Below are positions 21,083 to 38,273 of a stretch of DNA of 42,024 nucleotides, in pieces. Positions within the stretch are counted from its first letter, which is position 1, and every line of letters starts with the position of its first letter. The position numbers were made by a program, and so were the translations under genes. The stretch is from Arthrobacter endolithicus. Lineage in GTDB: Bacteria; Actinomycetota; Actinomycetes; Actinomycetales; Micrococcaceae. A model generated the notes under the pieces. The model worked only from the letters and a program-made list of their open reading frames with translations, had not been told where the DNA came from and did no database searches. The DNA is taken from assembly GCF_026627425.1 (NCBI RefSeq), contig NZ_JAPNLH010000024.1, positions 1 to 42,024 on the forward strand, written 5' to 3'.

Positions 21083-22048
21083 ATGACACCTATCCGCACC
21101 ATCACCACCACGGCCGTTGTGGGTGCCGGCTACATGGGCGGCGGTATCGCCCAGGTTTTGGCTTTACACGACTACAAAGTTGCCCTGGCTGATGTCGACG
21201 GCGAGGCGGCAGAACGCTCGCGCGCTCGGTTAGTGGAACAGGCAACCGTATTTGAGTCCGGTGGGCTGCTTCCGGAAGGCGCCGCCGATACGATCCGGAA
21301 AAATCTTGCCGCCGCCAGCAGCATCGAAGAAGCAGTAGGCTTGGCAGATTACATCGCCGAGGCTGTCCCGGAAGAGCCCGGCATAAAGGCCGCCACCCTT
21401 CGCCGGATCTCGGCCGCCGCACCGGCCGGGGCCATCATCGGGACAAACACCTCCGCAATCCCCATTGGAGAGCTGGCACAATCTGTGGCCGGTCCGGAGC
21501 GCTTCCTGGGCGTTCACTGGATGAATCCCGCACCGTTCATCCCGGGGGTGGAACTGATATCGGGCCCGGACACCGACACTGCCGTCCTAGGACTGGTGGA
21601 GGAACTGATCGGCGGGTTAGGCAAAACACCGGTCAGGGTGTCGGACACGCCAGGATTCGTTGCTAACAGGCTCCAGTTCGCGCTCTATAAAGAAGCAGTT
21701 CAGATGGTTGAAGACGGCATCGCTACAGCGGAACAGATTGACGCGGTTGTGGGCAACACCTTCGGCTTCCGGCTGGCACTCTTTGGCCCTTTTGCCATCG
21801 GCGATATGGCCGGACTGGACGTGTACGAGTCTGCGTACCGCACCCTGGAAAAGGCGTATGGTGCACGGTTCGCAGCACCGCAAGCCCTCGTCGCAACGGT
21901 GCAGAACGGCAATCTTGGGCTTAAAAGCGGGCACGGCTTCTTGGACATCGGCGCTGCTGACAAGGCAGCTCTTTTGGCCTACCGGGACAATGCCTACGCC
22001 CGCCTTTCGCAACTTCGTACGGAACTTGGTCAGGCACCTGGGCTGTAG
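21083..22048 (+). CDS. 3-hydroxyacyl-CoA dehydrogenase-family protein
   Basis: A 321-residue two-domain dehydrogenase. The N-terminal Rossmann motif is GAGYMGGG (14-21), the catalytic His is at about 145 (LGVHWMNP), the paired Glu lies in the following GVELI segment, and the C-terminal helical domain starts at TPGFVANRLQFALYKEA. The fold is shared by 3-hydroxybutyryl-CoA dehydrogenase, L-gulonate 3-dehydrogenase and carnitine dehydrogenase, so the substrate may be a free hydroxy acid rather than a CoA ester. No other beta-oxidation gene is nearby, which favours the free-acid view. Third gene of the LacI-controlled set. Confidence 0.85.
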   Translation: MTPIRTITTTAVVGAGYMGGGIAQVLALHDYKVALADVDGEAAERSRARLVEQATVFESGGLLPEGAADTIRKNLAAASSIEEAVGLADYIAEAVPEEPGIKAATLRRISAAAPAGAIIGTNTSAIPIGELAQSVAGPERFLGVHWMNPAPFIPGVELISGPDTDTAVLGLVEELIGGLGKTPVRVSDTPGFVANRLQFALYKEAVQMVEDGIATAEQIDAVVGNTFGFRLALFGPFAIGDMAGLDVYESAYRTLEKAYGARFAAPQALVATVQNGNLGLKSGHGFLDIGAADKAALLAYRDNAYARLSQLRTELGQAPGL

Positions 22049-22109: not shown

Positions 22110-23465
22110 TTAGCTCAACGCAGCAACAACCTCACTGCCCTCAGCTACTCTCACACCACTGTCATCGTGCTGGAACCTGATGCGGTTTCGGCCTACGAAG
22201 GTGGCGATAGCGGCTACGCCGGCAATCACAGCGAGGTAAAGGCTGAAAACCAGGCCGGTGCCAGCTCTCTCACTAAGCCATACTCCGAGAAGTGGTCCGG
22301 TGGCTCCAAAGATCACAACGCAGATGTTGTAGGCGAGTGATCCAGCCGTGATGCGCACCCGGGCCGGGAACATTTGTGAAATGGACAGTGCCACCGGAAC
22401 AGCCAGTAGTCCTTTTCCCGCGGCCAGCAGTGCACCGCCCAGCACGGCGCCCCAATAGCCGGTGGTGGCTAAGGCAAAGGCGGGAACTGCCGTTATTGCC
22501 ACAAACAGGGAGCCACCAAGCAGTAGTCGGTACATGCCGAACCTGCTCATGAGCGGGCCTGCTGCCAAGGCGGCAAGTATGAGCAGGACATCGACGAGCA
22601 ACGTGATGCCGTAGGCATCCCCGGCGGAGAGCCCACCTGGTCCCTTCAGAAACGTGATGAAGAAAGAGGATAGCGTCGGCGTGATCAGGGCGTAGGCCGA
22701 AACTACCAGGACGAACAGCAACATGGTGGACCACTGGGTTCGTAAGGCCGTTCTGATTGGTGTTGCCGCTTCGTGTGATTGTGCTCTGCTGCTAGCCATT
22801 TCCACGAATTCCGGGGTTTCGGCTACCTTACTGCGAATGTAGATGCCGGCCAGCCCGAGGGGGACTGCCAGCAGAAAGAGGATTCGCCAGCCCCAAATAT
22901 TGAAGAGAACGTCTCCCATCAACGCGGTACCTAGACTGGCCGCTCCCACCGCCACGAGAACGCCCAGGAACGTACTGGCCACCAAATAGCCGACATTGGT
23001 CGCTCGTTGCTTAGGCGAGCTGTGCTCGGCCAGGAATGTCACGGCGGAACCGTATTCGCCGCCGGCCCCCAGCCCTTGGACCAGCCGGCACAGCAAAAGC
23101 AGGGCCGGAGCGAAGATGCCGATGGAGGTGAACGTCGGCAGCAATCCTATTGCACCTGTCGCCACGGACATCAAGGTGATAGTGACAAAAAGAGCGGTGC
23201 GCCGGCCCAAGGTGTCGCCCAACCAGCCGGCAATCAGTCCGCCAAGTGGACGTGTCAAATAGGTCAAAGCGAATATTGCGTAGGTGCTCAGGAGTGCGAC
23301 TGTCGGGTCCCCTTTGGGGAAAAAGTGGCTGGCCAAAACGGTGGCCAGAACCCCGTACAGGCCGAAGTCGAACCATTCGGCAAAGTTTCCGGCTGCGGAG
23401 GCCACGACTACCCGCAACCGGTTGACACCGTGCACCCCTGTTGGCTCAACATCTCTAGTTTCCAT
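22110..23465 (-). CDS. MFS metabolite:H+ symporter (MHS family)
   Basis: A 451-residue carrier with about 12 membrane segments. It begins VVVASAAGNFAEWFDFGLYG, the signature of the MHS group (alpha-ketoglutarate, proline/betaine, shikimate carriers), and has the conserved loop WLGDTLGRRTAL between segments 2 and 3. It imports a small organic acid or zwitterion by proton symport. It is cotranscribed with the VOC gene 40 bp upstream and lies between the HisD-like operon and a LysR gene, so it probably supplies one of these pathways. Confidence 0.9.
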   Translation of the reverse strand: METRDVEPTGVHGVNRLRVVVASAAGNFAEWFDFGLYGVLATVLASHFFPKGDPTVALLSTYAIFALTYLTRPLGGLIAGWLGDTLGRRTALFVTITLMSVATGAIGLLPTFTSIGIFAPALLLLCRLVQGLGAGGEYGSAVTFLAEHSSPKQRATNVGYLVASTFLGVLVAVGAASLGTALMGDVLFNIWGWRILFLLAVPLGLAGIYIRSKVAETPEFVEMASSRAQSHEAATPIRTALRTQWSTMLLFVLVVSAYALITPTLSSFFITFLKGPGGLSAGDAYGITLLVDVLLILAALAAGPLMSRFGMYRLLLGGSLFVAITAVPAFALATTGYWGAVLGGALLAAGKGLLAVPVALSISQMFPARVRITAGSLAYNICVVIFGATGPLLGVWLSERAGTGLVFSLYLAVIAGVAAIATFVGRNRIRFQHDDSGVRVAEGSEVVAALS

Positions 23466-24100: not shown

Positions 24101-25000
24101 ATGGAAACCCGGCGTTTACAGTACTTCCTTGCGGTGGCAGAAGAACTTCACTTCGGACGCGCCGCATTGTTCCTGCACGTCTCACAACCGGCATTGAGTC
24201 AGCAGATCAACATTTTGGAACGGGAGCTGGGCGCGCGTCTGCTGAATCGCACCACGCGGGAGGTCTCGCTCACGCGTCTGGGGGTTGCTGTCGCGCAGCA
24301 GGCAAAGGTCTTCGCCGCCTCCGAAACGGACGTGAGAGAGAGGATTGCGGACCTGGTTTCCGGCCGACAGGGGTACTTACGCGTCGGCTTTGTTCCTTCG
24401 GCCGCTTACGACTTGTTGCCCCGGATCGTTGCCCCGTTCAGCCGCGAACATCCGGACGTCAGGCTCAGTTTGCAGGAAATGCCGTCGCAGCAGCAGATCG
24501 AACTGGTTCTCAACGGTCAAATGGATCTGGGGTTGGTCCGCGATGTTTCGCACGCGCGCGGAACTTCACTTATCCCGCTCGTGCGGGAAAAATTAATCCT
24601 TGCCTGTCCGGACCGTCACCCGTTGGCCGCGTCCGAAAAGGTCAGCCTCAGTGCCCTGCAGAGCGAGCGGTTTATCGTCCTACCAAAAAATGTTGCGCCC
24701 GCTATGTCGCGGACAATTTCCGCGCTCTGCCACCGTGCGGGCATTGATCTCAGCGATGCTATGGAAGTACTGGCCTTCCCCACGACCTTGGGCCTGGTTG
24801 CCAGCGGGATGGGTGTGGCTATTGTTCCAGCCTCGGTCCGGGCCACCGTACTTCCGGGGCTTGTCTACCGGGAACTGACGGAGGACAACGCGACCTCGCA
24901 ATTTTCAGCAGTCCTCCGGGAAGGTGGAGCTGATCAGTTGACGCAGCACTTCCTGAACATCGCGGGCCGTGCCATCGCGGGCCGTGCCCTCGCGGGCTAA
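24101..25000 (+). CDS. LysR-family transcriptional regulator
   Basis: A 299-residue LysR protein: METRRLQYFLAVAEELHFGR opening, HTH helix VSQPALSQQINILERELG (about residues 28-45), sensor domain from about 90 (GYLRVGFVPSAAYDLLPRI). It is divergent from the VOC-MFS pair, its probable target. The last residues, IAGRAIAGRALAG, are encoded by a 15-bp tandem repeat and extend past the usual domain end, so the C-terminus may vary between strains. Confidence 0.92.
   Translation: METRRLQYFLAVAEELHFGRAALFLHVSQPALSQQINILERELGARLLNRTTREVSLTRLGVAVAQQAKVFAASETDVRERIADLVSGRQGYLRVGFVPSAAYDLLPRIVAPFSREHPDVRLSLQEMPSQQQIELVLNGQMDLGLVRDVSHARGTSLIPLVREKLILACPDRHPLAASEKVSLSALQSERFIVLPKNVAPAMSRTISALCHRAGIDLSDAMEVLAFPTTLGLVASGMGVAIVPASVRATVLPGLVYRELTEDNATSQFSAVLREGGADQLTQHFLNIAGRAIAGRALAG
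24959..24997 (+). repeat. 15-bp tandem repeat at the LysR C-terminus
   Basis: The unit ATCGCGGGCCGTGCC occurs twice in full (24959-24973, 24974-24988) and is followed by a partial third copy with one change. It is in frame and encodes repeats of Ile/Leu-Ala-Gly-Arg-Ala just before the stop. Confidence 0.85.
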
Positions 25001-25071: not shown

Positions 25072-26040
25072 TCAGGGCGCGCCAGGGCGAATGCCGGGAT
25101 CGGTCACGGCGGCTCGCTTTGTCGGCTCAATGGTCCCGTGGTGGCGAGCGTGCTTAACCGACGAGGATTCCCTGACCGCTGACCTGATTTTCGACACGAG
25201 CATGGGGTTGGAGGCTTCTGTCGAGTAGATCAAGCTGACCGTCGAGGTGGCGTTGGTGTCCTCAATGTCCAGATAGACCAGGCCCGGGATGGCAAATGCA
25301 CGCATCGACTCCGGCACCACCGCAATGCCCAAGTGGGCGGAGACCAGGCCCAGAATGGTGGGAAACTGGACGGCTTCCTGGGCGATGTCGAAGTCCACGC
25401 CTACGGCATGAAGCAAAGCCGAAATGTGGTCAAAGAGCGACGAAATGCGGCTTCGAGGGAAAGCGATGAAGGCCTCACCTTTCAGATCCTTAAGGGCCAC
25501 AGATGACCGGGTGGCTAAGCGATGGTCGGAGGCTACGGCAACCACCAGGGGTTCATGCATGAGGACCGTTGCACTGATGCCAGCCACCGTCTTCATCTCC
25601 CGCGCAATGCCCGCGTCAAGACTGCCGGCGGCAATGAGCTCCAATTGCATATCCGTGGTCTCCTCGCGCAGCTGCAGATCAATTCCAGGCCACCAGGCGC
25701 GCATGTCCCGGACCAGTCCGGGCACCAGATAGATGGCTGCCGAAGAAACAAACCCCAGTCTCAGCCGGCCGAGTTCGCCGTCCCTGGCATGGGTCAGCGC
25801 CGCCGTCATAACGGCGTATTGAGCCAGAACCTTGCGTGCGTGTTCCAAAAGCACCTCACCCTCGGCGGTCAGCTCCACATTGCGCGAATTACGCACGAAC
25901 AAAGCCACCTTGCATTCCTCCTCCAGCTTGCGGATCTGCTGGCTCAACGGCGGCTGTGCCATGTGGAGGCGCTGGGCTGCCCGGTTGAAATGGAGCTCTT
26001 CGGCGACTGCAACAAAGAGTTCTAGGCGTCTGAGGTTCAT
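25072..26040 (-). CDS. LysR-family transcriptional regulator
   Basis: A 322-residue LysR protein: MNLRRLELFVAVAEELHFNR, HTH helix MAQPPLSQQIRKLEEECK, sensor domain from about 90 (GRLRLGFVSSAAIYLVPGL). The start at 26040 matches the family N-terminus; the upstream in-frame extension to 26088 has no family character. It is divergent from the aldehyde-dehydrogenase operon at 26159 and is the likely activator of that long set. It converges with the neighbouring LysR gene (stops 71 bp apart) and is distantly similar to it. Confidence 0.92.
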   Translation of the reverse strand: MNLRRLELFVAVAEELHFNRAAQRLHMAQPPLSQQIRKLEEECKVALFVRNSRNVELTAEGEVLLEHARKVLAQYAVMTAALTHARDGELGRLRLGFVSSAAIYLVPGLVRDMRAWWPGIDLQLREETTDMQLELIAAGSLDAGIAREMKTVAGISATVLMHEPLVVAVASDHRLATRSSVALKDLKGEAFIAFPRSRISSLFDHISALLHAVGVDFDIAQEAVQFPTILGLVSAHLGIAVVPESMRAFAIPGLVYLDIEDTNATSTVSLIYSTEASNPMLVSKIRSAVRESSSVKHARHHGTIEPTKRAAVTDPGIRPGAP

Positions 26041-26050
26041 GCAATCAAGA

Positions 26051-26109
26051 CTAGACGGGTATTGAAGCGCGTCAAATAGATATTTCATTTAGCACGGCGA
26101 TGCGTCTAG
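26051..26109. promoter_or_regulatory. Control region of the long catabolic operon
   Basis: The 118-bp gap between LysR and the aldehyde dehydrogenase holds a dyad CTAGACG (26051-26057) / CGTCTAG (26103-26109) and, inside it, the near-palindrome TTGAAGCGCGTCAA (26062-26075). Separated dyads of this kind are usual for LysR activators. No clear -35/-10 pair stands out. Confidence 0.45.
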
Positions 26110-26158: not shown

Positions 26159-27619
26159 ATGCCCGTAATGACCAAGACTGCCAGCAGCTTCATCAACGGT
26201 ACCTGGGTTGAGGGATCCGGTGCTTTCGTGTCCCGGTACAACCCGGCAGTGCCGGAGGAGGTTGTGACCAGCTACCATCAGGCCGGCTCCGCGGATCTGG
26301 TGCAGGCGATCCAGGCCGCCGCGGCCGCATCCACGTCCTGGGACGGGCTGGGCATACTGGCCCGCGGCCGGGTCTTGGCCGCCGCCGCGGCAGCCATCCG
26401 GGACCGGGCCGAGGAAATCGCCGCCGTCATGACCGCCGAACACGGCAAGACGATCGCGGAGTCCCGGATGGAGGTCGACGCATCGGCGGATACCTTTGAC
26501 TACCATGCGGCCTCCGCCCGCAATCCCGTGGGTACCGAATTCCCCTCCAGCCATCCGGAGGAGCGGATCCTGACAGTGCGGCGGCCGCTGGGCGTGGTCG
26601 GGGTGATCACCCCGTGGAACTTCCCCCTGCAGATTCCGGCCTGGAAGATCGCTCCGGCGCTTCTGCACGGCAACACGGTGGTGTGGAAGTCGGCGAGTAA
26701 TACGCCAGGTGTCTCCGTTCTGCTGATGGAGGCGCTGGCCGCCGCCGGCATCCCCGCCGGCGTTGTCAACCTGATTTTGGGCCCGGGCCAGCTCGGCTCC
26801 GAACTAGTATCCGATCCCTTGGTGGGAGGGGTGACATTCACCGGATCCGTTCCGGTCGGCCACCACATCCGCGGGATCGTCTGCGGACGGGGAGCGAAAC
26901 TGCAGCTTGAACTTGGGGGCCACAATGCCACACTGGTGCTTCCGGATGCGGATGCTGAGCTGGCTGCCACCAGCGTTGTCGCGGCCGCCATGGGTTCCAC
27001 CGGTCAGAAGTGCACCGCCACGCGGCGCGTGATCCTGGTCGGCGGCGGGCACGAGGACTTCCTGGCAAGGGTCAAGGACAAGGTGTCGAAGTTGGTCTTG
27101 GGACCGGGCACGGATGCCTCCGTCCAGATCGGCCCAGTCGTCTCGCCGTCGGCCCGTGAGGAAATCGACGCAGCCATCGAGCAGGCGCTGGCGGAAGGCG
27201 GGGAAATCCTGGCGCAGGCGGTCCTGCCGGAAGGAGAAGGCAGCTACGTCGCCCCGACCGTGCTGACCGGACCGCGCTCCATGACCATCTGCCAGGAGGA
27301 AGTCTTCGGCCCTGTCACTACCGTGCTGCACGCAGACACCCTGGAGGAGGCCATCGAATTGGCCAACAATACGGCGTTCGGCCTCACCGCCGCAGTCTTC
27401 AGCAGCGATGAGCGCGCCATCCGCCGCTGCGTGTCCGCGCTGCAGGCAGGCCTGGTCAAGGTCAACGCCCCGACCACCGGCTCCGAACTGCACGCACCAT
27501 TCGGGGGTATGAAGGATTCCACCTTCGCCGGACCGCGGGAGCAGAACAGCACCGCCGCCGCCACATTCTTCACCCACGAAAAGACCGCCTACCTGCGACT
27601 GGCACCCAAGAAGGCATGA
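26159..27619 (+). CDS. NAD(P)-dependent aldehyde dehydrogenase
   Basis: A 486-residue ALDH-superfamily enzyme oxidising an aldehyde to its acid. Catalytic Glu is at about 251 (LQLELGGHNA) and nucleophile Cys at about 285 (STGQKCTATRR); the NAD site segment ITPWNFPLQIPAWKIAPAL is intact. It resembles ketoglutarate-semialdehyde-type dehydrogenases more than SSADH. The ATG at 26159 has AAAGGA upstream. It is first in a run of overlapping genes, its stop overlapping the next start (ATGA), and is divergent from a LysR gene. The substrate is probably a product of the downstream enzymes. Confidence 0.9.
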   Translation: MPVMTKTASSFINGTWVEGSGAFVSRYNPAVPEEVVTSYHQAGSADLVQAIQAAAAASTSWDGLGILARGRVLAAAAAAIRDRAEEIAAVMTAEHGKTIAESRMEVDASADTFDYHAASARNPVGTEFPSSHPEERILTVRRPLGVVGVITPWNFPLQIPAWKIAPALLHGNTVVWKSASNTPGVSVLLMEALAAAGIPAGVVNLILGPGQLGSELVSDPLVGGVTFTGSVPVGHHIRGIVCGRGAKLQLELGGHNATLVLPDADAELAATSVVAAAMGSTGQKCTATRRVILVGGGHEDFLARVKDKVSKLVLGPGTDASVQIGPVVSPSAREEIDAAIEQALAEGGEILAQAVLPEGEGSYVAPTVLTGPRSMTICQEEVFGPVTTVLHADTLEEAIELANNTAFGLTAAVFSSDERAIRRCVSALQAGLVKVNAPTTGSELHAPFGGMKDSTFAGPREQNSTAAATFFTHEKTAYLRLAPKKA

Positions 27620-29337
27620 CCATGAACCTCACTGAAGAAAAAACCAGGTGTGAGCTGCGCGCCCCAGGGGCTGTGCTCTGCGGCTCCGATATGAACGGTG
27701 CCTGGGGCACGCGCCACAGTTTTGCCCGCACCATGCTCCGCCGTGCGGCCTCCCACCAATGGCGCGTGACCAAGTCACGTCTGGAGCTGGACGAGCTGGG
27801 TCGGGGGACAGCCGTCTACACCATCGACACCGAGGGCTTCAGCCTGAAGTTCATCGCTTTCTGCCAGGCCCTGGAAGAAAGCGAACGCACCGACAGAGTG
27901 ATTGCGAAAGCCTGGGACGTCACGGCCGCCCTCATCGAAGGCGAACTGAGCCCGGAACGTGAAGCGGATCTGCGGCGCAATGTCACGGTCCAGGAACAAG
28001 GCCGCACCGACCCGGAAACGATCATTATGACCCGGGCCAACCGCAGCGCGCGCTTCTTCGACTATGTGAGCGATTGCCTCGCGGCGGGGACACAGCCCGA
28101 CGTGGCGAAGATCGGTCCCAGCCCCTACCTGATCCGCAGTACCGCTTTCTATGGCAACGGCAAGTTTGGCCTCAAGGAGCTGGCCACCCTGCCCGCCGCC
28201 CACCCCTTGTCCGTCCCCTACCGTTCGCAGATGCTCGCCGCCTGGCTGCTGCGCGAGCTCAGCATGGATCTGGTGGAACACGTCGCCAAGGCCAAGGCGC
28301 GGGCTGCCGGCACCACTGCTGTTGCCCTGGACGCGGACTGGGGCAGGTACTTTGGCTTGGGCAACGCCACCGGCCTGGGGATGGTGCCTTTCCTGGTCAA
28401 CCACCCCGGCTACCTCGACGCCTGGTGCAAGCTCCGCGAGCTTCCCCTCGCAGCGGGACTCGCCGCCAGTTACGCACCGGAGGATCCTGACCTGGGCCGG
28501 GTTGCTGAACTACTTGAGAGGGCGGACCGGCATCTGGCGGAAAAGTCCGAGTTGAAGACGGTGCCGTTCCTTTCGACTGATTCGATCAGGCCCCAACTTT
28601 GCCAGCTGCTGCGCGAACTGCAGGCCTTCATGGCTTCCGGTGAGAAGGCCGCACCCGTGCTGGCACGCCTGCACGAACTGGCCGGTGGCCTTAGCCCGGA
28701 AGCCCGCGGACTCTTCGCCTCCATCGTCATTGAACTCCGGAACGATTTCGATCAGGAGGCTGACGCCCTCCTCACGGTGGCCGCCCCGCCGCCCTTTGAC
28801 CCGGCCATGACCGGGGGCGAATTGCGGGCACTACTGGATCAAAACTATGGCTGGACCCGCACCTACGACTTTGCCGCCCCGGAGCGCTCTACCTACTACT
28901 GGTACACGTCCGCGGACAGCGAAGAACCGAGGCGGGCGCAACGAACGCAGATGGCGCCCGGCACAGTGGAGCACTGTACGGACGTGGCACGCCGGATCAA
29001 CGCCCTGGCTGCCGATTTGGAACGCTTCCCCGCTGGAACCAGCGTGGCCGAATTCCTGCTGGCCCATCCGGACCACCGTTTTGCTGCCGAACGGATCCAG
29101 CAAACTAAGGATTACCACTACGGGGATCTGCAGGACAACCTCGTGGATGCACAATTCCTGCCGCTGAGCACCCAGCGCTTCCAGCTGGCGACGTACGGCA
29201 TGAACAACTTCAGCCCGCAGTCCACTGACTGGGTGCGGGTCACTTTGTTCAGCGGCGCCCCGCGGGTGGCGGAGGTCATGAACGGAACCGACGACGACGA
29301 CTGGCTATTTCCGCTGGCACCTGAAGGAGCGAAATAA
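27616..29337 (+). CDS. Conserved-looking protein of unknown function (573 aa)
   Basis: The start overlaps the aldehyde dehydrogenase stop (ATGA) and the stop overlaps the dipeptidase start (TAATG), so the protein is made with both. It is soluble: no signal peptide, no membrane segment. I see no nucleotide-binding loop, no zinc motif and no known catalytic signature. Features are an N-terminal region with SHQWRVTKSRLELDE, a helical Ala/Leu-rich middle (about 190-370), an aromatic segment RSTYYWYTSAD near 421-431, and a C-terminal region with DYHYGDLQDNLVDAQFLPLS. Codon use and GC match the neighbours. A role as a large subunit or scaffold of the pathway is possible. I do not recognise the family. 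Confidence 0.85.
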   Translation: MTMNLTEEKTRCELRAPGAVLCGSDMNGAWGTRHSFARTMLRRAASHQWRVTKSRLELDELGRGTAVYTIDTEGFSLKFIAFCQALEESERTDRVIAKAWDVTAALIEGELSPEREADLRRNVTVQEQGRTDPETIIMTRANRSARFFDYVSDCLAAGTQPDVAKIGPSPYLIRSTAFYGNGKFGLKELATLPAAHPLSVPYRSQMLAAWLLRELSMDLVEHVAKAKARAAGTTAVALDADWGRYFGLGNATGLGMVPFLVNHPGYLDAWCKLRELPLAAGLAASYAPEDPDLGRVAELLERADRHLAEKSELKTVPFLSTDSIRPQLCQLLRELQAFMASGEKAAPVLARLHELAGGLSPEARGLFASIVIELRNDFDQEADALLTVAAPPPFDPAMTGGELRALLDQNYGWTRTYDFAAPERSTYYWYTSADSEEPRRAQRTQMAPGTVEHCTDVARRINALAADLERFPAGTSVAEFLLAHPDHRFAAERIQQTKDYHYGDLQDNLVDAQFLPLSTQRFQLATYGMNNFSPQSTDWVRVTLFSGAPRVAEVMNGTDDDDWLFPLAPEGAK

Positions 29338-30329
29338 TGAGCGTTCACCAGCAGGCGACGGTCGTGGACGGATTGCAGATCAGTAACTGGAGCCGGCCGG
29401 TCCTGGAGGAATTGCGCACCGGCGGCGTCAGCGCAGTCAACGCCACCTGCGCCGTCTGGGAAAATGCGGCTGAAACGATGCGCTCCATCGCCCAATGGCT
29501 GGAGCTGGCCAACCGCAACGACGACCTCGTCTTCCTGGCCAGCAGCGGCGCTGACATCCAAACGGCAAAGGAGCACAACAAGATTGCCGTCTTCCTGGGC
29601 TTCCAGAACGGCAGCCCCTTCGAGGACGACTACCGCTACGTGGAACTCTTCCACCGTCTGGGTGTCCGCATAGCCCAGCTGACGTACAACAACCAGAACC
29701 TGCTCGGAGGCGGCTGCTTCGAGACCGAGGACTCCGGGCTCACCCGCTACGGACGTGTGGTGGTGACCGAGATGAACCGGGTAGGAATGCTGATCGACCT
29801 GTCCCATGTCGGGTACCGCACCAGCCGCGACGCAATCGAAGCTTCCACGGTTCCCGTCGCCATCACCCATTCAAACCCTTTGTGGTTCTTTAATACACCT
29901 CGCAACAAGCCCCACGACGTGATCCAACCGCTCGTGGACCGCGGGGGAGTCATCGGGTGCTGCCTTTACCCGACAGTCAGCGGTGGCGAACACGTCACCA
30001 TCGAGAGCTTCGCCGGCATGGTCGCACGCATGGTGGACGAGTATGGGCCCTCCCATGTAGGTCTGGGCAGCGACTGCACCCGCGGCTGGGACCAGGAATT
30101 TGTCGGCTGGCTTCGCAACGGCCGCTGGCAGCCGACCGCACCGGAAAACTCACCCCAGTGGCCCGCCTGGCCCAACTGGTTTACCGGACCCGAAGACTTC
30201 CCCCGGCTCACCGAGGGACTGATGGCCGCCGGACTCACCGACGACACCATCGCCGCGGTCCTGGGCGGCAACTTCAGCCGCCTGTTCGCCGAAGTCATGG
30301 ACAACACCAAGGAGAAGGCCCATGTCTGA
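29337..30329 (+). CDS. Membrane-dipeptidase-family protein with altered metal site
   Basis: A 330-residue TIM-barrel protein of the renal dipeptidase family (COG2355). Usual enzymes bind two zincs through HxD, a bridging Glu and two later His. Here the second half is kept (LIDLSHVG, ITHSNP, GLGSDC), but the N-terminal HxD is replaced by VVDGLQISNW and the bridging Glu by Gln in GFQNGS. From memory, a subgroup with these same changes occurs beside amine and betaine catabolic genes in pseudomonads and rhizobia. It may therefore hydrolyse something other than dipeptides or use one metal. AGGAG precedes the ATG; it overlaps both neighbours. Confidence 0.88.
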   Translation: MSVHQQATVVDGLQISNWSRPVLEELRTGGVSAVNATCAVWENAAETMRSIAQWLELANRNDDLVFLASSGADIQTAKEHNKIAVFLGFQNGSPFEDDYRYVELFHRLGVRIAQLTYNNQNLLGGGCFETEDSGLTRYGRVVVTEMNRVGMLIDLSHVGYRTSRDAIEASTVPVAITHSNPLWFFNTPRNKPHDVIQPLVDRGGVIGCCLYPTVSGGEHVTIESFAGMVARMVDEYGPSHVGLGSDCTRGWDQEFVGWLRNGRWQPTAPENSPQWPAWPNWFTGPEDFPRLTEGLMAAGLTDDTIAAVLGGNFSRLFAEVMDNTKEKAHV

Positions 30330-31059
30330 GACCAGAGTATCTGAGGCCACAGTGTCAGCCAGCACAGACAGTGCCCACGGTAACGCCGACTGTTCCGTCC
30401 AGCCCCGCGAGATCGTAGAATCGGCCTTCCGCGCCCTGTGCGCCGCGGGTGCGGACCCAGCCGAGGCCCAGGAGGGCGGACTGGCCGTGCTGCGGGCCGA
30501 AGTCGACGCAAAGCAAGGGCTCGCTTTGCTGGAGCAACTACTTGCCGCTGACTGGGCACAGCCCGTGCGGGCCGCCGCCACCAGGTCCACTGCCTGGGCC
30601 GGTGTCACCGTCCACGAACTCGACTGCCCTGACCAACCGGCGTTGCGTTCGGCGATGCAGCTGATCGACCTTGCCGCCAGCGGCGCTGCCGAAGAAGTCC
30701 GGGTCAGCCGCACCACGGTGTCCGGGATCCCGCGCTCACTGTGGAATGACCTGCTGCTGCGGCGCAGCGCCAACCTGCAGCGCAGCATTGTTGTGGCCAT
30801 CTCCACCAAGGCCGGCACGGAATACCTCTCCGTCCACCATGACTCCGTCATCTCGGCAAGTGAGCCGCCCAGCTCGGCCATGGCAGCATCGCTGCTGCCG
30901 CAGTCAGAGGAGGAGAATACCGCCGTCATTGTCCTTCCCGGCACCACCGCGCCGGACCGCCAGGACGCCAACATTTGTCAAAATCCCCTGAAAGTAAGTG
31001 AACAAGAATGGCACCGCATGTATCAGCTCTCCCGGAACTACCTGATGGCGGACCAGTGA
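30322..31059 (+). CDS. DUF3726-like protein of unknown function
   Basis: A 245-residue protein whose start lies eight bases inside the dipeptidase gene. Residues about 29-70 (EIVESAFRALCAAGADPAEA region) and the end VSEQEWHRMYQLSRNYLMAD resemble the first and last parts of DUF3726 proteins, which have a helical start of the form NEIEALxxKAARGAG and end near a conserved W-x-L/M-x-x-L/Y motif. That is a recollection-based match and the middle is diverged. No membrane or catalytic motif is visible. The coupling with dipeptidase and RidA suggests a shared pathway. Confidence 0.7.
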   Translation: MSETRVSEATVSASTDSAHGNADCSVQPREIVESAFRALCAAGADPAEAQEGGLAVLRAEVDAKQGLALLEQLLAADWAQPVRAAATRSTAWAGVTVHELDCPDQPALRSAMQLIDLAASGAAEEVRVSRTTVSGIPRSLWNDLLLRRSANLQRSIVVAISTKAGTEYLSVHHDSVISASEPPSSAMAASLLPQSEEENTAVIVLPGTTAPDRQDANICQNPLKVSEQEWHRMYQLSRNYLMADQ

Positions 31060-31436
31060 CCAGCATCGAGCGCACCGAGTTCTCCGACGGCAAACCCCGG
31101 CCATACTCGGCCTCGGCCGCCGTCAACGGCATCGTCTTTCTCTGCGGGCAGGTTCCGACCCGTGCCGACGGTTCGACCCCGGCCGACATCGCCGGCCAAG
31201 TGGTTCAAGCGTTCGACAACTTGGAAAACGCCCTGTTGGGTGCACGTTCGGACTTGTCCAGCCTCCTCAAACTCACCGTCTTCCTCGCGGACCTGGACGA
31301 GTTCGAGGACTACAACGCCGCCTACCTTACCCGGCTCAGCGGCCATCCTCTCCCTCCCCGTACCACGGTGCAGGTTGCCCGTTTCCGGGGCGAGAAACGC
31401 ATCGAAATCGATGCCGTCGCAGCCACAACAGCCTGA
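31056..31436 (+). CDS. RidA-family (YjgF/YER057c/UK114) protein
   Basis: A 126-residue RidA-type protein; members hydrolyse reactive enamine/imine intermediates of amino-acid breakdown to ketones. Family segments are present: YSASAAVNGIVFLCGQVP, NLENALLGARSDLSSLLKLTVFL and the end PPRTTVQVARF with the conserved Arg that binds the carboxylate. The start is the GTG at 31056 overlapping the preceding stop; the earlier in-frame ATG lies well inside the upstream gene. Its presence suggests the pathway passes through an imine, that is, a nitrogen-containing substrate. Confidence 0.9.
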   Translation: MTSIERTEFSDGKPRPYSASAAVNGIVFLCGQVPTRADGSTPADIAGQVVQAFDNLENALLGARSDLSSLLKLTVFLADLDEFEDYNAAYLTRLSGHPLPPRTTVQVARFRGEKRIEIDAVAATTA

Positions 31437-31502
31437 CCCACCCCGGTCACGGATCTGTTGGGTAACCACCGCCGCTTTCCCTAAGCCCAGATCGGAACCA
31501 CC

Positions 31503-32870
31503 ATGCTCTCCCACGCACCAGTTCCAGCACCTACCTCGCAACTAACCATCGATTCAGCACCGCTGAATTCGTTCCACAAGCGCCTGACATTGTTCAGCTC
31601 GGGCGGCCCGTTCCTGGACGGTTACATTCTGGCCATCATCGGCATCGCGCTGGTCCAGATCATTCCTCAATGGCAGATGAACGAGTGGTGGAACGGGCTC
31701 ATTGGCGCTTCCGCACTGGTCGGCGTGTTCATTGGCGGACTGGTATTCGGTAACATCACGGATAAAATCGGCCGCAAGCTTATGTACACAATCGACCTTG
31801 TCGCGATCATCGTGTTCTCGATTGCGCAGTTCTGGGTCAATGAGCCCTGGCAGCTGTTCACGCTGCGCCTGCTCATCGGCATTGCCGTCGGGGCCGACTA
31901 TCCGATCGCCACCGCGCTGGTCGCCGAATTTGTTCCATCAAATTGGCGGGCACGGCTCCTGGGAGGCCTCAACGCCATGTGGTTTGTCGGGGCCACCGTG
32001 GCAGCCTTCGTTGGCTACTGGCTGCTGTCGCTGCCAGACGGCTGGCGGTGGATGCTCCTGTCCTCGGCGGTACCGGCAGTCTTGATCCTCATTGCCCGGG
32101 CAACGATCCCGGAATCCCCCCACTGGCTGGTCGGTAAGGGCCGGCACGACGAAGCCCTGGCCATCTTGAAGAAAACCATCGGTGAAGAAGCAACCCTGGA
32201 CGGGATCACGGCCCACGACCCCAACGCCGTCAAGCTCAGCACGGGCAAAGCGTTCAAGATGGTGCTGACCGGCGGCTACCTGAACCGCGTCATCTTCATC
32301 TCTATCTTCTGGACCTGCACCATCGTGACGCTGTTCTCGATCTACGCTTTTGGGCCCCAGATCCTGGCCCTGTTCCACCTCGAGTCCGGCGACGCAGCCA
32401 ACATCGGCTACGGGCTGATCAACCTGTTCTTCCTCGTAGGCAACATTGTCGCCCTGCTCGTCGTTGACAAGCTCGGCCGCCGCCCCGTCCTGATCTGGGG
32501 CTTCATCCTCTCCGGCGTCGGCCTGCTGTTCCTCGCACTCTTCCCCGCCGCCCCGCTTGGCCTGATCGCCCTCGCCTTCGCCTTCTACGCCATCTTCAAC
32601 GGCGGCCCCTCAATCCTGGAATGGATCTATCCAAACGAGCTCTTCCCGACCAAGGTGCGGGCCACCGCCGTCGGCCTGTGCACCGGAACCAGCCGCATCG
32701 GCGCCGCCATCGGGACCTTCGCCACACCCTTGTCACTGACCCACTTGGGGCTCTCCGGCACCATGTGGATCGCCGCGGGAATTGCCCTGGTAGGAGCCGG
32801 CGCCAGTTACTTCATGGCACCGGAAACCAAGGGTAAAAACCTCGAAGACGCAGCCTCACTCCACGCCTGA
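31503..32870 (+). CDS. MFS transporter, sugar-porter-like
   Basis: A 455-residue carrier with about 12 membrane segments. It has the loop GNITDKIGRKLMYTID (segments 2-3), a second loop VVDKLGRRPVLIWG (8-9), and PESPHWL and PETKG blocks near segments 6 and 12, all marks of the sugar-porter/aromatic-acid branch. An acidic residue in FLDGYILAIIG (segment 1) is typical of organic-acid importers. It sits in the middle of the catabolic run, 66 bp after ridA, and most likely imports the substrate. Confidence 0.9.
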   Translation: MLSHAPVPAPTSQLTIDSAPLNSFHKRLTLFSSGGPFLDGYILAIIGIALVQIIPQWQMNEWWNGLIGASALVGVFIGGLVFGNITDKIGRKLMYTIDLVAIIVFSIAQFWVNEPWQLFTLRLLIGIAVGADYPIATALVAEFVPSNWRARLLGGLNAMWFVGATVAAFVGYWLLSLPDGWRWMLLSSAVPAVLILIARATIPESPHWLVGKGRHDEALAILKKTIGEEATLDGITAHDPNAVKLSTGKAFKMVLTGGYLNRVIFISIFWTCTIVTLFSIYAFGPQILALFHLESGDAANIGYGLINLFFLVGNIVALLVVDKLGRRPVLIWGFILSGVGLLFLALFPAAPLGLIALAFAFYAIFNGGPSILEWIYPNELFPTKVRATAVGLCTGTSRIGAAIGTFATPLSLTHLGLSGTMWIAAGIALVGAGASYFMAPETKGKNLEDAASLHA

Positions 32871-32921
32871 GAATGCCGGAATGCACCGCGACACCCGACA
32901 ATTCATAGACAAGGAAACACC

Positions 32922-34652
32922 ATGACGTTACTGAACGTCGCCGACCACACCACTGGCCTAGAAGCGAAGACGCAGAACAGTGCTGATTACGGGACATCTT
33001 CCACTGACGTCCCGGCACCCGCGGCGCTATCGGCAGGGCACGTCATCGTCGACTCGCTTCTGGCCCACGGCGTTCGACGCGTCCACGTGGTCCCGGGGGA
33101 GAGCTACCTCGAGGTCCTGGATGGTCTGCATGCCTCGCCGATTGAGACGATTGTCTGCCGTCATGAAGGCGGTGCCAGTTACATGGCCGAGGCGGATGGG
33201 AAGATGAACCAGGTTCCTGGTATCGCGATGGTGACCCGTGGTCCCGGGGCGGCGAACGCGCACGTGGGCCTGCACACCGCTTGGCAGGATTCAACACCCA
33301 TGGTCCTTTTCGTCGGGCTGATTCCCTTTAACCACCGGGACCGGGAGGCGTTCCAGGAGTTCGACATCAAAGCCTGGTTCGACACCGGGGCCAAGCGCGT
33401 CATGGTCCTCGACCATGCCGAACGCGCCTCGGAAATCGTCGCCGAAGCCATGTTTGCGGCCTTGAGCGGGCGGCCCGGACCCGTCGTCGTCGGCCTGCCC
33501 GAGGACATCATCCGCGAACACATCAACCCGTCCCTGCACCCGCCCATCCCCGTCGCTGGAGGCGGCATGACCGGGGAGGACTCCGATGCGCTGGCCCAGG
33601 CACTTGCAGCCTCTTCTAAACCGCTGTTTGTGACCGGGGGAAATGACTGGACCCAAGAAGGGGCGGACCGGTTGACCCGGTGGCTGGAGTGCCACCACAT
33701 TCCGGCCGCGGCTGAGTGGCGCACGGAAGGTACGGTTCCCTTCGATTCCCCCTCCTATGTGGGCCCGATCGGCTACGGGCGGCCCCGTCCGACCCATGAC
33801 TTGCTGGAAGAAACCGATCTCCTTGTCTTTGTCGGCACCGTGCCCGGCGACGTCATCACCGACGGCTTTCTTAATCGTCAGGATTGGAACGAGGTGAATT
33901 TCATCGTCACCATGGATCCGTCTCTGCGCGGACGCTCCGGGGGAGTGTCGCGGCAGATCGTGGCAAAACCGGATGCTTTTGTCCGGGACTTGGTCAGGAT
34001 TGCGCTTCCAGTGAAGGACGAATGGAAGGCCTGGACGGGAAGGATGCGGGCGCAACAGGAACAATTCGCCACGCTTCCCGACGCAGCACCGGGAACCGGT
34101 GCTGCCCGGATGGACACCCTGATGGCGAACCTGATGCCAACGCTGCCCGCAGACGCTATGGTCACCTTCGGTGCCGGGGAACACACTAACTGGGCCCACC
34201 GCTACTTTCCCACCCGGAGCTACGCCTCCATGATCAGCGCCCGGAACGGTTCCATGGGCTACTCCGTGCCTTCCGCCGTCGCCGCTTCCCTTGCCTACCC
34301 GAGCCGGCGAGTGGTGACCATTGCCGGAGATGGCGAATTCCTCATGAACGGCCAAGAACTGGCCACCGCCGCCCAATACGGTGCCACGCCTTTGGTGATC
34401 GTCATGGATAACCAGGAATACGGCACCATCCGCACCCACCAGGAACGGCACTACCCGCACCGCATCTCCGGCACCCAGCTGAAGAACCCGGACTTTGCCC
34501 TGATGGCCGAAGCCTTTGGCGGCTTCGGTATCAGGGTCGAGCTGGATCGGGACATTCCCGGCGCCCTCGCCGCGGCGCTGAAGGCGATCGATGAGGACCA
34601 GGTCTTCGCCCTCATCCACCTCGTCGTCGAACAGCGCGTGAAGGCCTACTAA
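32922..34652 (+). CDS. Thiamine-diphosphate-dependent enzyme (acetolactate-synthase/decarboxylase type)
   Basis: A 576-residue ThDP enzyme with the three usual domains. The activating Glu is at about 82 (CRHEGGASYMAEA); the ThDP/Mg motif runs from GDG (469-471) to N497 (GDGEFLMN to VIVMDN). The first 35 residues are an extra, low-complexity extension. Such enzymes decarboxylate 2-oxo acids or join carbonyl units. With a succinate-semialdehyde-dehydrogenase-like gene next to it, a 2-oxoglutarate-like or other 2-oxo acid decarboxylation is a plausible job. It lacks the sequence style of sulfoacetaldehyde acetyltransferase. AAGGAAA precedes the ATG. Confidence 0.88.
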   Translation: MTLLNVADHTTGLEAKTQNSADYGTSSTDVPAPAALSAGHVIVDSLLAHGVRRVHVVPGESYLEVLDGLHASPIETIVCRHEGGASYMAEADGKMNQVPGIAMVTRGPGAANAHVGLHTAWQDSTPMVLFVGLIPFNHRDREAFQEFDIKAWFDTGAKRVMVLDHAERASEIVAEAMFAALSGRPGPVVVGLPEDIIREHINPSLHPPIPVAGGGMTGEDSDALAQALAASSKPLFVTGGNDWTQEGADRLTRWLECHHIPAAAEWRTEGTVPFDSPSYVGPIGYGRPRPTHDLLEETDLLVFVGTVPGDVITDGFLNRQDWNEVNFIVTMDPSLRGRSGGVSRQIVAKPDAFVRDLVRIALPVKDEWKAWTGRMRAQQEQFATLPDAAPGTGAARMDTLMANLMPTLPADAMVTFGAGEHTNWAHRYFPTRSYASMISARNGSMGYSVPSAVAASLAYPSRRVVTIAGDGEFLMNGQELATAAQYGATPLVIVMDNQEYGTIRTHQERHYPHRISGTQLKNPDFALMAEAFGGFGIRVELDRDIPGALAAALKAIDEDQVFALIHLVVEQRVKAY

Positions 34653-34735
34653 CCAAGGCCGCCGGCTGCTATCACCCCTGCTGCCACGGCACCACCCGGT
34701 CCGGGACTCTAGTACTCAATGATTGGAAGAAGTGA

Positions 34736-36217
34736 ATGTCCGTTTCCCCTGAAGATGAAACCCGGCTGTTGTCCACGGTTCCGGCCGACCTGCTGATAAA
34801 TGGACTGTGGCGGCCGGCCGTGACCGGGAAAACGTTTGACGTGGAGGATCCGGCCACGGGAGAGGTGCTGATGTCCGTCGCCGACGCCGGTCCCGAGGAC
34901 GCCCTGGCGGCCCTGGACGCGGCCGTGGCCGCCCAGGGATCCTGGGCGGCCGTGCCGCCGCGGGAGCGCGGGGAGATCCTGCGCCGGGCGTTCGAGCTAG
35001 TCACCGAACGTGCCGCGGACTTTGCGCTGCTCATGACTCTGGAAATGGGCAAGCCGCTGGCGCAGGCCCACAGCGAGGTCGCCTACGCGGCGGAGTTCCT
35101 GCGCTGGTTTTCCGAGGAAGCGGTCAGGACATTTGGGCGTTATTCCGTCGCCCCGGAAGGAACGTCCAGGCTGCTGGTTACGAAGAAGCCTGTGGGTCCG
35201 TGTCTGCTGATCACGCCCTGGAATTTCCCACTGGCCATGGCGACCCGCAAGATTGCCCCGGCGGTCGCCGCCGGCTGCACCATGGTCCTGAAGCCCGCGA
35301 ACCTGACCCCGCTGACGTCCCAGCTGTTCGCCGCGCTCATGCAGGAAGCCGGGCTGCCGGCCGGAGTGCTGAACGTCGTCCCTACCTCCACCGCAGGAGC
35401 CACCACGGGCCCGCTCGTCACGGACCCCCGCCTGCGCAAGATTTCCTTCACCGGCTCCACGGAGGTTGGGCGGAGGTTGCTGGCTAATGCCTCCGAGACG
35501 GTGCTGCGCACCTCCATGGAGCTGGGCGGTAATGCCCCGTTTGTGGTCTTCGACGACGCCGACGTCGACGCTGCCGTCGCGGGGGCCATGATCGCTAAGA
35601 TGCGGAACATGGGCGAGGCCTGCACAGCAGCCAACCGTTTCATCGTCCACGAAACCATCGCGAACGAATTCACCGAGAAATTCGCCGCTCAGATGTTTGC
35701 GCTGAGCCCGGGACGCGGCACAGACGAGCACTCAACGATGGGGCCACTGATCGATGCCAAGAGCCGGGAAAAGATCCACCAGCTCGTCACCGATGCGGTC
35801 GCCGACGGTGCGGCCGCAGTGACCGGCGGCGCCGTGGTTGAGGGCCCCGGCTACTTCTACCAGCCCACCATCCTCACCGGCGTCACGGAAAGCGCCCGGA
35901 TACTGTCCGAGGAAATCTTCGGCCCCGTCGCCCCGATCATCACCTTCGCCACCGAGGACGAGGCCGTCCGGCTCGCCAACAACACCGAATACGGGCTGGC
36001 GGCCTACGTCTTCACCGCTGACTTCAACCGGGGCCTGCGGATGGGCGAACGTCTGGAGACCGGCATGCTGGGCCTGAACACCGGTGCCATTTCCAACGCC
36101 GCTGCGCCCTTCGGCGGGGTCAAGCAATCCGGGCTGGGACGCGAGGGCGGACTGGAAGGAATCCAGGAATACCTCTACACCCAATACATCGGCATCCCCG
36201 ACCCTCACCTCGGCTGA
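34736..36217 (+). CDS. gabD: Succinate-semialdehyde-dehydrogenase-like aldehyde dehydrogenase
   Basis: A 493-residue ALDH of the GabD group, expected to oxidise a short semialdehyde with NAD(P). The catalytic Glu is at about 262 (MELGGNAPF) and Cys at about 296 (NMGEACTAANR); LLITPWNFPLAMATRKIAPA and the C-terminal FGGVKQSGLGREGG are typical of SSADH. GGAAGAAG precedes the ATG. It follows the ThDP enzyme by 83 bp on the same strand, making an oxo-acid to aldehyde to acid sequence likely. The exact aldehyde is inferred. Confidence 0.87.
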   Translation: MSVSPEDETRLLSTVPADLLINGLWRPAVTGKTFDVEDPATGEVLMSVADAGPEDALAALDAAVAAQGSWAAVPPRERGEILRRAFELVTERAADFALLMTLEMGKPLAQAHSEVAYAAEFLRWFSEEAVRTFGRYSVAPEGTSRLLVTKKPVGPCLLITPWNFPLAMATRKIAPAVAAGCTMVLKPANLTPLTSQLFAALMQEAGLPAGVLNVVPTSTAGATTGPLVTDPRLRKISFTGSTEVGRRLLANASETVLRTSMELGGNAPFVVFDDADVDAAVAGAMIAKMRNMGEACTAANRFIVHETIANEFTEKFAAQMFALSPGRGTDEHSTMGPLIDAKSREKIHQLVTDAVADGAAAVTGGAVVEGPGYFYQPTILTGVTESARILSEEIFGPVAPIITFATEDEAVRLANNTEYGLAAYVFTADFNRGLRMGERLETGMLGLNTGAISNAAAPFGGVKQSGLGREGGLEGIQEYLYTQYIGIPDPHLG

Positions 36218-36408: not shown

Positions 36409-36430
36409 AAAAGTGGGGCTTTTCAGCCCC
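36409..36430 (-). terminator. Intrinsic terminator of the FUSC gene
   Basis: Reading the minus strand, GGGGCT-GAAA-AGCCCC (36430-36415) is followed by ACTTTT. The stop codon of the FUSC gene lies in the loop, so the hairpin ends that transcript directly at the gene end. Confidence 0.65.
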
Positions 36431-38273
36431 GGTTGTGGGTCTTCAGGAACTCAGTGCTGCTGGAACCGACCCATTGTGCGACCTGCACAAGGCCGGGGGA
36501 ATCGGCCTCATCAGGATTCTGCTGCTTATCCTGGACCATGATCCCGTCCAGCGCGTCTGCCGCGGCGTTCAACGTCTGGGTGCTCAAACGGCCCTCCCCG
36601 GCCTCGAGGACGCTCACAATCGCGAGCGTCTCGAATCGCGTGGCCAGGGAACTGCAGTCGTCGGCGGGCACGCCGGCACGCTCATCCTGTCTGCCCAATG
36701 GCGAACGAAGATTCAGCACTTCCGTGCGCTGTCGGTAGAGCGGGCGCATCAGTTCGGGCGGCATGCCATGTTGCCACGGTGTCCCGGACGCCGGATTGGC
36801 GCATTGTGCGATCGAGCGAAGTAGCTCGCTCCCCGCCCTTCTTGTCCGGCGCACCCGCACCGCCACTGGGTCCGGCTTGAGTTGTGGCACCACCGTGAAT
36901 CCGAGCAGCAACCCGATTGCGACCCCGGAAAACAAGAGCAGGATGTACTCGATGAGTGTGCGGGTCGGGTCAAGGCCCTTGCCGATGGCGTTCATGCCGA
37001 CCGAGACGACGACGAAGCTGCCGATCGACAGTACCTGATTACTGGCGATCAGCCAGACGCCGGCAATGGCGGCGATGAGGGCGAAGGGCAGAAGCCACGA
37101 CTGCGGCAGGAGCCACAAGGCCAGGGCCATGACGCCAGCGCCTCCGGCGACTCCCAGCACCCGTTGTTTGGCTTTGAACAGGGACTGGGTCCAGCTGATC
37201 TGCAGGATCGCGAAGGACGCCGTGGCCATTGAGGTGACCAGCGAATCATGCGGTCCCACGGTCGCCCACGCCACGAGGAACGTGACCAACACGCCTAGTG
37301 CCGTCCGTATCGCGTGTCTCAGGGTCTGCGAACGCCACGTGAATGCTGATTTGGCGGAGGCCCGGTCAAAGGCGCGCCTCGTTGCTGCCGCGTCAGCGAC
37401 TTTCGTGGTGTTTCTAAGGCGGGCCGCCTCCTCAACACGGTCGAGGGTTCGCAATGCCGCATCCAGCCCAACCGTGTTTGGGGAAGCCACGTCGGGTGTC
37501 CGGGGACTGGGATCGCCGGGCTTTTGTGCCGCCACCACTTCCGACACCTCGGAGGCCCGCCGGTCTGCTGTCGCTGCCTCGTTGCCGTCCAGGAAGGTCC
37601 GGATCGTCCGGTATTCGACGGCCCCGTGGAGAGACTCCTGCAGCCACTGCACCGGCCGGTCCCTTAGCCACATTGTGTAGGCATGCTCGAAACCGGGGTC
37701 GGGCTCCGTCAGCGTCGCGGCCGCCAGTGCACGGGCGACGTCGCTGGGGTCTCGTATCTTCATCAGGATCCGCAGCAGAACGACGAAGCAGACGCCGACA
37801 AAGGCCGCCGCCACGGTCTGAAGCGCTGACCCAGTGTTCGTTTGGAGAGCGAAGGCAAGCAACGTGGCAATGCCCAGACCCAGGCCGGCTTGCGCGTAGT
37901 TCTTGCCCAAGACCGGCAGCAAACCAGCCACGAAGATGATCACGCAGACGAGGACCAGCGCCAGTCCTAGGTTGTACTCAGCGAGAATACGCGGCGTCGA
38001 CGCGGACAAGGCGGTTAGCGGTCCGTACCAGGCCACTTTTCTCAGATCCGCCCGCAACGTGCCTCCGCCGACGCCGAGGGTGAAGAAGATGGCCGTGAAA
38101 CCGGCAATAATGATGCTCGCGCCGAGGTTGAGAGCCGCCGCGATGAGCATCGCTCCGCCCATCACTACGACCACCACCGCGATGAGACCGATGCTCGCCG
38201 AGACGTCCCGTCCGAGTTTCTTTCGGGGTTTGGCCGACTCTGCACCTGCCGCTTCCGCTCCCGACGCATGCAT
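36423..38273 (-). CDS. FUSC-family membrane protein (aromatic-acid exporter-like)
   Basis: A 616-residue membrane protein with two membrane blocks: about residues 25-170 (GLIAVVVVVMGGAMLIAAAL and following) and about 345-480 (HAIRTALGVLVTFLVAWATV and following), separated and followed by cytoplasmic regions. This two-block layout is that of the fusaric-acid-resistance/PET family of exporters. The ATG at 38273 gives a short hydrophilic head. It stands alone, with a terminator at its stop. The substrate is unknown. Confidence 0.83.
   Translation of the reverse strand: MHASGAEAAGAESAKPRKKLGRDVSASIGLIAVVVVVMGGAMLIAAALNLGASIIIAGFTAIFFTLGVGGGTLRADLRKVAWYGPLTALSASTPRILAEYNLGLALVLVCVIIFVAGLLPVLGKNYAQAGLGLGIATLLAFALQTNTGSALQTVAAAFVGVCFVVLLRILMKIRDPSDVARALAAATLTEPDPGFEHAYTMWLRDRPVQWLQESLHGAVEYRTIRTFLDGNEAATADRRASEVSEVVAAQKPGDPSPRTPDVASPNTVGLDAALRTLDRVEEAARLRNTTKVADAAATRRAFDRASAKSAFTWRSQTLRHAIRTALGVLVTFLVAWATVGPHDSLVTSMATASFAILQISWTQSLFKAKQRVLGVAGGAGVMALALWLLPQSWLLPFALIAAIAGVWLIASNQVLSIGSFVVVSVGMNAIGKGLDPTRTLIEYILLLFSGVAIGLLLGFTVVPQLKPDPVAVRVRRTRRAGSELLRSIAQCANPASGTPWQHGMPPELMRPLYRQRTEVLNLRSPLGRQDERAGVPADDCSSLATRFETLAIVSVLEAGEGRLSTQTLNAAADALDGIMVQDKQQNPDEADSPGLVQVAQWVGSSSTEFLKTHNRG

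Follow-up and report, generated by a model that had tools for sequence, protein, structure and literature searches.

An operon built around U573, an M19 homologue and a DUF3726-like protein in Arthrobacter endolithicus, with a probable role in the catabolism of an N-methylated betaine-type compound

The closest described systems to the locus reported here are bacterial pathways for N-methylated compounds. Passages of PMC13390433 cite a homarine pathway conserved in environmental bacteria (Ferrer-Gonzalez et al. 2026, Nat Microbiol), give N-methylglutamate dehydrogenase (Mgd) a part in homarine catabolism and place an AraC-type regulator gene next to mgdABCD (the tmaR-mgdABCD layout). Homarine (N-methylpicolinate) is described in passages of PMC12817926 as a concentrated diatom osmolyte that R. 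pomeroyi draws down quickly, and passages of PMC12093977 describe a predicted dipeptidase gene, pepD, that in Vibrio natriegens and P. aeruginosa precedes the dimethylglycine catabolism genes dgcAB. Here we analyse 42,024 nucleotides of Arthrobacter endolithicus DNA (the window), one whole contig of a 3.96-Mb Actinomycetota genome, in which end-to-end overlaps join five genes on the + strand (26159-31436; open reading frame (ORF) calls and translations), encoding an aldehyde dehydrogenase (ALDH), a 573-residue protein (U573), an M19 homologue, a 245-residue DUF3726-like protein and a RidA-family protein. As the first-pass annotation of this DNA had described, and as ORF positions and translations bear out, genes for an MFS carrier, a thiamine diphosphate (ThDP) enzyme and a succinate-semialdehyde-dehydrogenase-like (SSADH-like) enzyme follow on the same strand, with a divergent LysR gene (Table 1). 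We lean towards reading the locus as an operon under LysR control that catabolises an N-methylated nitrogen compound of the betaine type; homarine, or a ring compound closely related to it, is the likeliest substrate. The locus is a variant of what is probably a known kind of operon, and it includes two protein families without assigned chemistry.

The conservation of the locus was followed through U573, matches to which occur in 4 of the 5 genomes of the genus (the window's genome included), 6 of 396 phylum genomes and 10 of 396 order genomes (both including the window's genome and weak matches). Surroundings were taken from 14 of these genomes; three genomes with weak partial matches (G287, G550 and G757; E 2e-4 to 7e-4) were excluded before loci were counted. 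A scan of named genomes with the 14-sequence U573 alignment supplied the best 80 of 532 confirmed relatives, among which Paenarthrobacter sp. PH39-S1 (94%) and Arthrobacter sp. 35W (80%) are closest by U573, and 13 plasmid regions were hand-picked from 168 matching records. Once the duplicates L034 and L039 had been removed, the set comprised 106 loci around U573, the window among them. Neighbours were counted within 7 kb on each side of U573 using profiles rebuilt twice on their own matches: M19 was found at 100 loci, the DUF3726-like gene at 98 (a count that thereby rests partly on place), ALDH at 57, a related LysR at 44, Ldh (a true Ldh_2 enzyme) at 39 and RidA at 33, with RidA and Ldh together at none. 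Restricting the count to the 74 loci flanked by 4.5 kb or more on each side gave M19 at 69, DUF3726-like at 69, ALDH at 45, LysR at 37, RidA at 28, Ldh at 24 and both at 0; narrower first profiles with a 6-kb limit gave, for 99 loci, 94, 34, 31 and 34 for M19, DUF3726-like, RidA and Ldh, respectively, and again no locus with both of the last two. No M19 match lies nearby in L085, L086, L088, L093 and L094 (actinobacterial, mostly Acidimicrobiales) or in the archaeal L130. Carriers near U573 comprise BCCT (17 of the 106 loci), betaine-type ABC (11) and MFS of the window's type (22).

The conserved core is thus formed by U573, an M19 homologue without the HxD motif and the DUF3726-like protein, often with ALDH, either RidA or a true Ldh_2 enzyme, and a carrier. 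This core occurs in soil Actinomycetota, in marine Acidimicrobiales and on plasmids of the Roseobacter group, and a halophilic archaeon holds a related set; marine carriers are many (Acidimicrobiales, the Roseobacter group, Psychrobacter and Vibrio), and soil and rhizobial hosts occur too. Since the same genes are found together in genomes well beyond the genus, and since the window's genome holds one M19 match only, this is more than a chance grouping. The 106-locus counts bear out the earlier picture of a conserved operon, catabolic in type, in which an atypical M19 homologue, RidA and a carrier accompany two uncharacterised proteins, and the outcome that had been named as its refutation, homologues that never co-occur, is clearly not what these genomes contain. 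The co-occurrence proposed as a check holds for M19 and the DUF3726-like gene but not for the ThDP gene (5 of 106).

U573 has no match in Pfam or NCBIfam. Its AlphaFold2 model (mean pLDDT 82.7, pTM 0.86) matched no PDB chain at E<=0.001 in Foldseek, and a sequence search of the PDB returned two chance-like matches only (E 0.37 and 0.46); the predicted fold appears unlike the solved structures searched. Judging from the 62 invariant residues in the 14-sequence alignment, U573 is presumably an enzyme. On a Mesorhizobium plasmid (L116, 11947-14391), U573 and DUF3726 are fused into a single 814-residue protein within an operon that also holds LysR, ALDH, dipeptidase and Ldh genes, which supports a physical U573–DUF3726 complex. 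L116 is the only locus in which the fusion is supported: ORFs of 857-878 residues in L029-L033 were rejected as fusions, their C-terminal extra part having neither a Pfam match (L029 tested) nor a DUF3726-profile match and a likeness by eye only, and the N-terminal extension of the L025 and L026 ORFs (1069 and 1050 residues) was judged by eye to be spurious read-through.

The 245-residue protein itself does not match Pfam DUF3726 (PF12525), for which control genomes gave no match either; its relatives in L103, L106, L114, L115 and L119 exceed the cut-off. The label "DUF3726-like" therefore finds no footing in a profile match of its own, but stands through synteny, an iterated profile and the predicted fold, by which the protein joins the family. 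The top 27 Foldseek matches of its AlphaFold2 model (pLDDT 84.5) are all members of the Ldh_2 family (probability 1.00, TM about 0.4-0.6, large root-mean-square deviation). The L103 relative matches the Ldh_2 profile (E 5e-12) as well as DUF3726 (E 2e-9), and the L023 relative matches Ldh_2 at E 2e-7, under the cut-off. A profile comparison of the 245-residue protein with one Ldh, at a probability of 3%, weighs against this kinship, and an SHG-type motif, present in 4 of 76 DUF3726-like copies, is a weak test because merely 12 of 39 Ldh copies carry it. The protein is not a full-length catalytic Ldh_2, being about 100 residues shorter; from the model, DUF3726 looks like an Ldh_2 enzyme minus this portion, and a reduced Ldh_2 is its likely origin. 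An assignment to PhyH was rejected, as the match (E 0.008) falls below the cut-off and is contradicted by the predicted fold. A literature search found no paper on DUF3726.

The M19 homologue reaches 239.5 bits against the Pfam M19 profile (cut-off 26), with an alignment that starts only at profile position 36. It is the sole M19 match in the window's genome, so abundance of the family does not account for its position next to U573. At the columns where we take the HxD motif to lie, His is found in none of 93 and Asp in none of 94 readable copies (99 aligned). Specifically, these proteins resemble M19 renal-type dipeptidases in fold family, in the later His residues and in the Asp of GSD (the latter kept in 99 of 99 copies, as are the later His residues), but differ in that the HxD of the first metal site is gone in every readable copy; at the bridging Glu column, 60 copies have Glu and 37 Ala. 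The closest solved structure, 2i5g, shares the DGLxxxxW start. A standard dipeptidase reaction for the hydrolysis proposed in the first-pass annotation is not supported, and a peptide pathway seems unlikely, because HxD is absent and because proteobacterial versions stand beside betaine transporters and sarcosine-oxidase-type genes. PepD, which we presume to be an M19 member as well, provides a parallel. According to passages of PMC12093977, the pepD-hp-dgcAB arrangement likewise sets a predicted dipeptidase and an unknown gene within an N-methyl amine pathway; it differs by another demethylase, and those passages name no U573, DUF3726 or ALDH.

The company kept by the operon in other bacteria bears directly on its substrate. 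The order LysR, ALDH, membrane dipeptidase, BCCT (in three), hypothetical protein, DUF3726 and Ldh recurs in Shinella, Roseateles, Aminobacter, Pararhizobium, Mesorhizobium, Ruegeria TM1040, Phaeobacter S4Sm and Tritonibacter; four of these eight continue with a glycine-betaine ABC transporter, purU is added in Shinella and Roseateles, and folD in Roseateles as well. In the Phaeobacter DSM 17395 and Pseudomonas loci, RidA is present and Ldh absent. In L114, L125, L128 and L129, genes for sarcosine oxidase subunits and for an AraC/GlxA-type regulator directly adjoin the operon, an arrangement resembling the tmaR-mgdABCD layout given in passages of PMC13390433, and a SoxA-like gene lies near the operon in L100. 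The L114 oxidase subunits pass curated sarcosine oxidase cut-offs, and the L114 GlxA-type regulator is nearest to GbdR, a regulator of choline metabolism; the oxidase genes of these five loci fit either SoxA or Mgd. Together, the transporters and oxidase genes point to a zwitterionic N-methyl compound rather than peptides. A separate observation in Phaeobacter and Pseudomonas is a cluster of Rieske-type oxygenase, ALDH and FAD-oxidoreductase genes near the operon (L128, 19903-24966; L118, 1-6207), perhaps a second betaine pathway.

Further indications come from the enzymes themselves. The best NCBIfam model for the window's ALDH is NF042993 (alpha-ketoglutaric semialdehyde dehydrogenase; 443 bits, below the equivalog cut-off of 770), the ALDHs of RidA-type and Ldh-type operons are both nearest to this enzyme, and the catalytic-type Cys and Glu are each present in 54 of 54 aligned copies. 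The nearest solved relative of the operon Ldh is delta1-piperideine-2-carboxylate reductase (1wtj, 2cwf; Ldh_2; E 5e-52, next 8e-35), whose fold family is also the one predicted for the DUF3726-like protein, short as the latter is; this reductase family also handles N-methyl amino acids. These Ldh and ALDH kinships suggest a five-carbon 2-imino intermediate. The window's genome, by contrast, has no Ldh_2 match (controls positive). RidA matches Pfam Ribonuc_L-PSP (81.5 bits) and falls under the cut-off of the curated subfamily TIGR00004 (74.3 against 106.25 bits); a conserved Arg, which presumably binds the substrate carboxylate, is kept in 33 of 34 copies. The absence of Ldh_2 from the genome, the operon's own RidA and a copper amine oxidase encoded elsewhere in the genome fit a RidA route yielding a 2-oxo compound and methylamine. 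We suggest that RidA replaces Ldh in Micrococcaceae, other lineages having the piperideine-carboxylate-reductase-like Ldh.

A possible sequence of steps would begin with import of an N-methylated betaine-type compound by the MFS carrier, probably the operon's importer in Actinomycetota (91% identity to its counterpart in L027, Cryobacterium sp. PH31-O1). U573, with the DUF3726-like subunit, would dearomatise or open the ring, the M19-fold enzyme would hydrolyse a formamide- or lactam-like C-N bond in the product of ring opening, RidA would hydrolyse the resulting N-methyl imine with release of methylamine, and the ALDH would oxidise the remaining five-carbon semialdehyde to 2-oxoglutarate. Relatives of the Ldh type would instead reduce the imine to N-methylglutamate, which a sarcosine-oxidase-type enzyme would then demethylate. 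The catabolic route would accordingly end at the level of glutamate. Quite tentatively, U573 and its stripped-down Ldh_2 subunit might thus represent a new N-methylpyridinium-type ring-dearomatising or ring-opening enzyme that uses neither flavin nor a Rieske oxygenase, assisted by an M19-fold hydrolase minus half its metal site, with RidA as a catabolic replacement for the imine reductase in Micrococcaceae and other lineages, rerouting the pathway to 2-oxoglutarate and methylamine.

As passages of PMC13390433 have it, the homarine pathway is conserved in environmental bacteria and involves Mgd, and the carriers found here include many marine bacteria, but the window's type of operon has RidA and an MFS carrier where its relatives have Ldh and betaine transporters. 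The earlier statement that no described pathway has this gene set is accordingly doubtful, since the 2026 homarine pathway (PMC13390433, in part) fits the gene company. A literature search on homarine and on the gene company returned no paper describing these genes among its listings and passages. We take homABCDER to be the name of the homarine operon; a name of this form would suit five genes and a regulator. Several points weigh against the homarine reading. The link is drawn from gene company and cited descriptions; the order of steps and the role of U573 are a proposal only. The L114-type oxidases may serve sarcosine and glycine betaine rather than N-methylglutamate, and the window's operon, with its MFS carrier, has no adjoining sarcosine-type oxidase, a SoxA homologue lying elsewhere in the genome. 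The mutual exclusion of RidA and Ldh (Fisher p 7e-9) was rejected as proof that they are interchangeable, its weight being removed by the U573 tree, on which 4 RidA/Ldh switches suffice among 52 well-flanked rows and an independent-pair sign test is not significant. Finally, the distant loci L131, L028 and L029 keep U573 and M19 with IclR or with other transporters and enzymes, so that the module need not be homarine-specific.

Three other explanations can be envisioned. The distant loci would suit a general module of U573, M19 and DUF3726 (such as a complex that cleaves or reduces C-N bonds) whose substrate is set by local partners: L131, on a Sinorhizobium meliloti plasmid, represents a second type of U573-DUF-M19 set with IclR, another ABC transporter, an aminotransferase, SSADH and two RidA genes, L029 has amino-acid-type ABC genes, L028 has IclR, and in L130 (the haloarchaeon Natrinema versiforme) U573 and a DUF3726-like gene adjoin a BCCT transporter. 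These distant rows, however, group apart on the tree (with long-branch warnings), whereas the window's clade is uniform, with LysR, ALDH, M19, DUF3726-like, RidA and MFS in 11 of 11 rows; we regard such a module as possible but doubtful. An operon of the same kind acting on another N-methylated or cyclic betaine (trigonelline, stachydrine, N-methylpipecolate, a methylated lactam or glycine betaine derivatives) seems rather unlikely. The transporters, sarcosine-oxidase-type genes, GbdR-like regulator and piperideine-carboxylate-reductase-like Ldh fit several compounds, and soil and rhizobial hosts meet plant betaines, but trigonelline and stachydrine are known to be degraded by other enzymes. 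The many marine carriers also count against it, homarine being a concentrated diatom osmolyte (PMC12817926, in part).

A single eight-gene pathway, in which every gene product, the ThDP and SSADH-like enzymes included, serves the breakdown of one nitrogen compound following hydrolysis of the dipeptidase type, as the first-pass annotation had envisaged, is by far the least probable. All eight genes do share one strand with short gaps, and ThDP and SSADH genes also follow the operon in a different genus (L038, Pseudarthrobacter albicanus). Across the survey, however, ThDP lies near U573 at only 5 of 106 loci (the window, three congeners and P. albicanus) and SSADH within 7 kb at 3 (further out in L038), and both are absent near the operon in L027, L035, L036, L037, L040 and L041, with no match to either after the MFS gene of L027. 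The ThDP gene is broken up in L020 and L021, spread over several frames or pieces beside intact core frames; it is in several frames in L022 too, where, as in L041, core genes are also split and sequencing error is possible. The M19 metal motif, moreover, is lost. Given these counts, all from Micrococcaceae-type loci, ThDP and SSADH are add-ons of such loci and not part of the core; as a separate add-on, they could turn 2-oxoglutarate into succinate.

Table 1 Genes of the operon and its accessory genes in the window.
Feature	Position	Strand	Remarks
LysR-type regulator, divergent, candidate operon regulator	25072..26088	-	Pfam LysR/HTH_1
Aldehyde dehydrogenase (ALDH)	26159..27619	+	ATG start; longer TTG start at 26135 also possible
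573-residue protein (U573), no known family	27616..29337	+	4-bp overlap with ALDH gene
M19 (amidohydrolase-fold) homologue, HxD-less	29337..30329	+	1-bp overlap with U573 gene; Pfam M19
245-residue DUF3726-like protein	30322..31059	+	8-bp overlap with M19 gene; reduced Ldh_2-type look
RidA-family protein (imine/enamine hydrolase type)	31056..31436	+	GTG start in GTGA overlap; Pfam Ribonuc_L-PSP
MFS carrier	31503..32870	+	Pfam Sugar_tr/MFS
ThDP enzyme, PRK08199 subfamily, accessory	32922..34652	+	NF006052, 557 bits over cut-off 539
SSADH-like enzyme, accessory	34736..36217	+	TIGR01780, 565 bits against cut-off 646

An alternative upstream ATG exists for the RidA gene at 31008. Terminator-like sites in the stretch are at chance level (8 found, 7.9 expected), and no promoter-like site was found (1.4 expected). 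A second LysR gene (24101-25000) adjoins the operon's LysR on the other strand; in relatives, the two LysR kinds are about 40% identical (tblastn). Elsewhere in the window, an IS21-type transposase pair (Mu-transpos_C_2 and IstB) lies at the contig start (380-2061), and histidinol-dehydrogenase-like, SDR and 3-hydroxyacyl-CoA-dehydrogenase-like genes stand in a row (18923-22048) alongside a divergent LacI-type regulator and an MFS gene (22110-23465), forming a second candidate catabolic cluster, the substrate of which we guess to be a hydroxylated sulfonate or a carnitine-like compound. A 616-residue membrane protein (36423-38273), unmatched in Pfam at 1e-6, resembles, by eye, aromatic-acid efflux proteins (FUSC-type).

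The breadth of hosts implies that the core probably handles an abundant natural compound. RidA, usually regarded as a clean-up enzyme, is here proposed to perform a pathway step, and should homarine prove to be the substrate, Arthrobacter-type bacteria would count among the organisms that degrade it, by a variant route.

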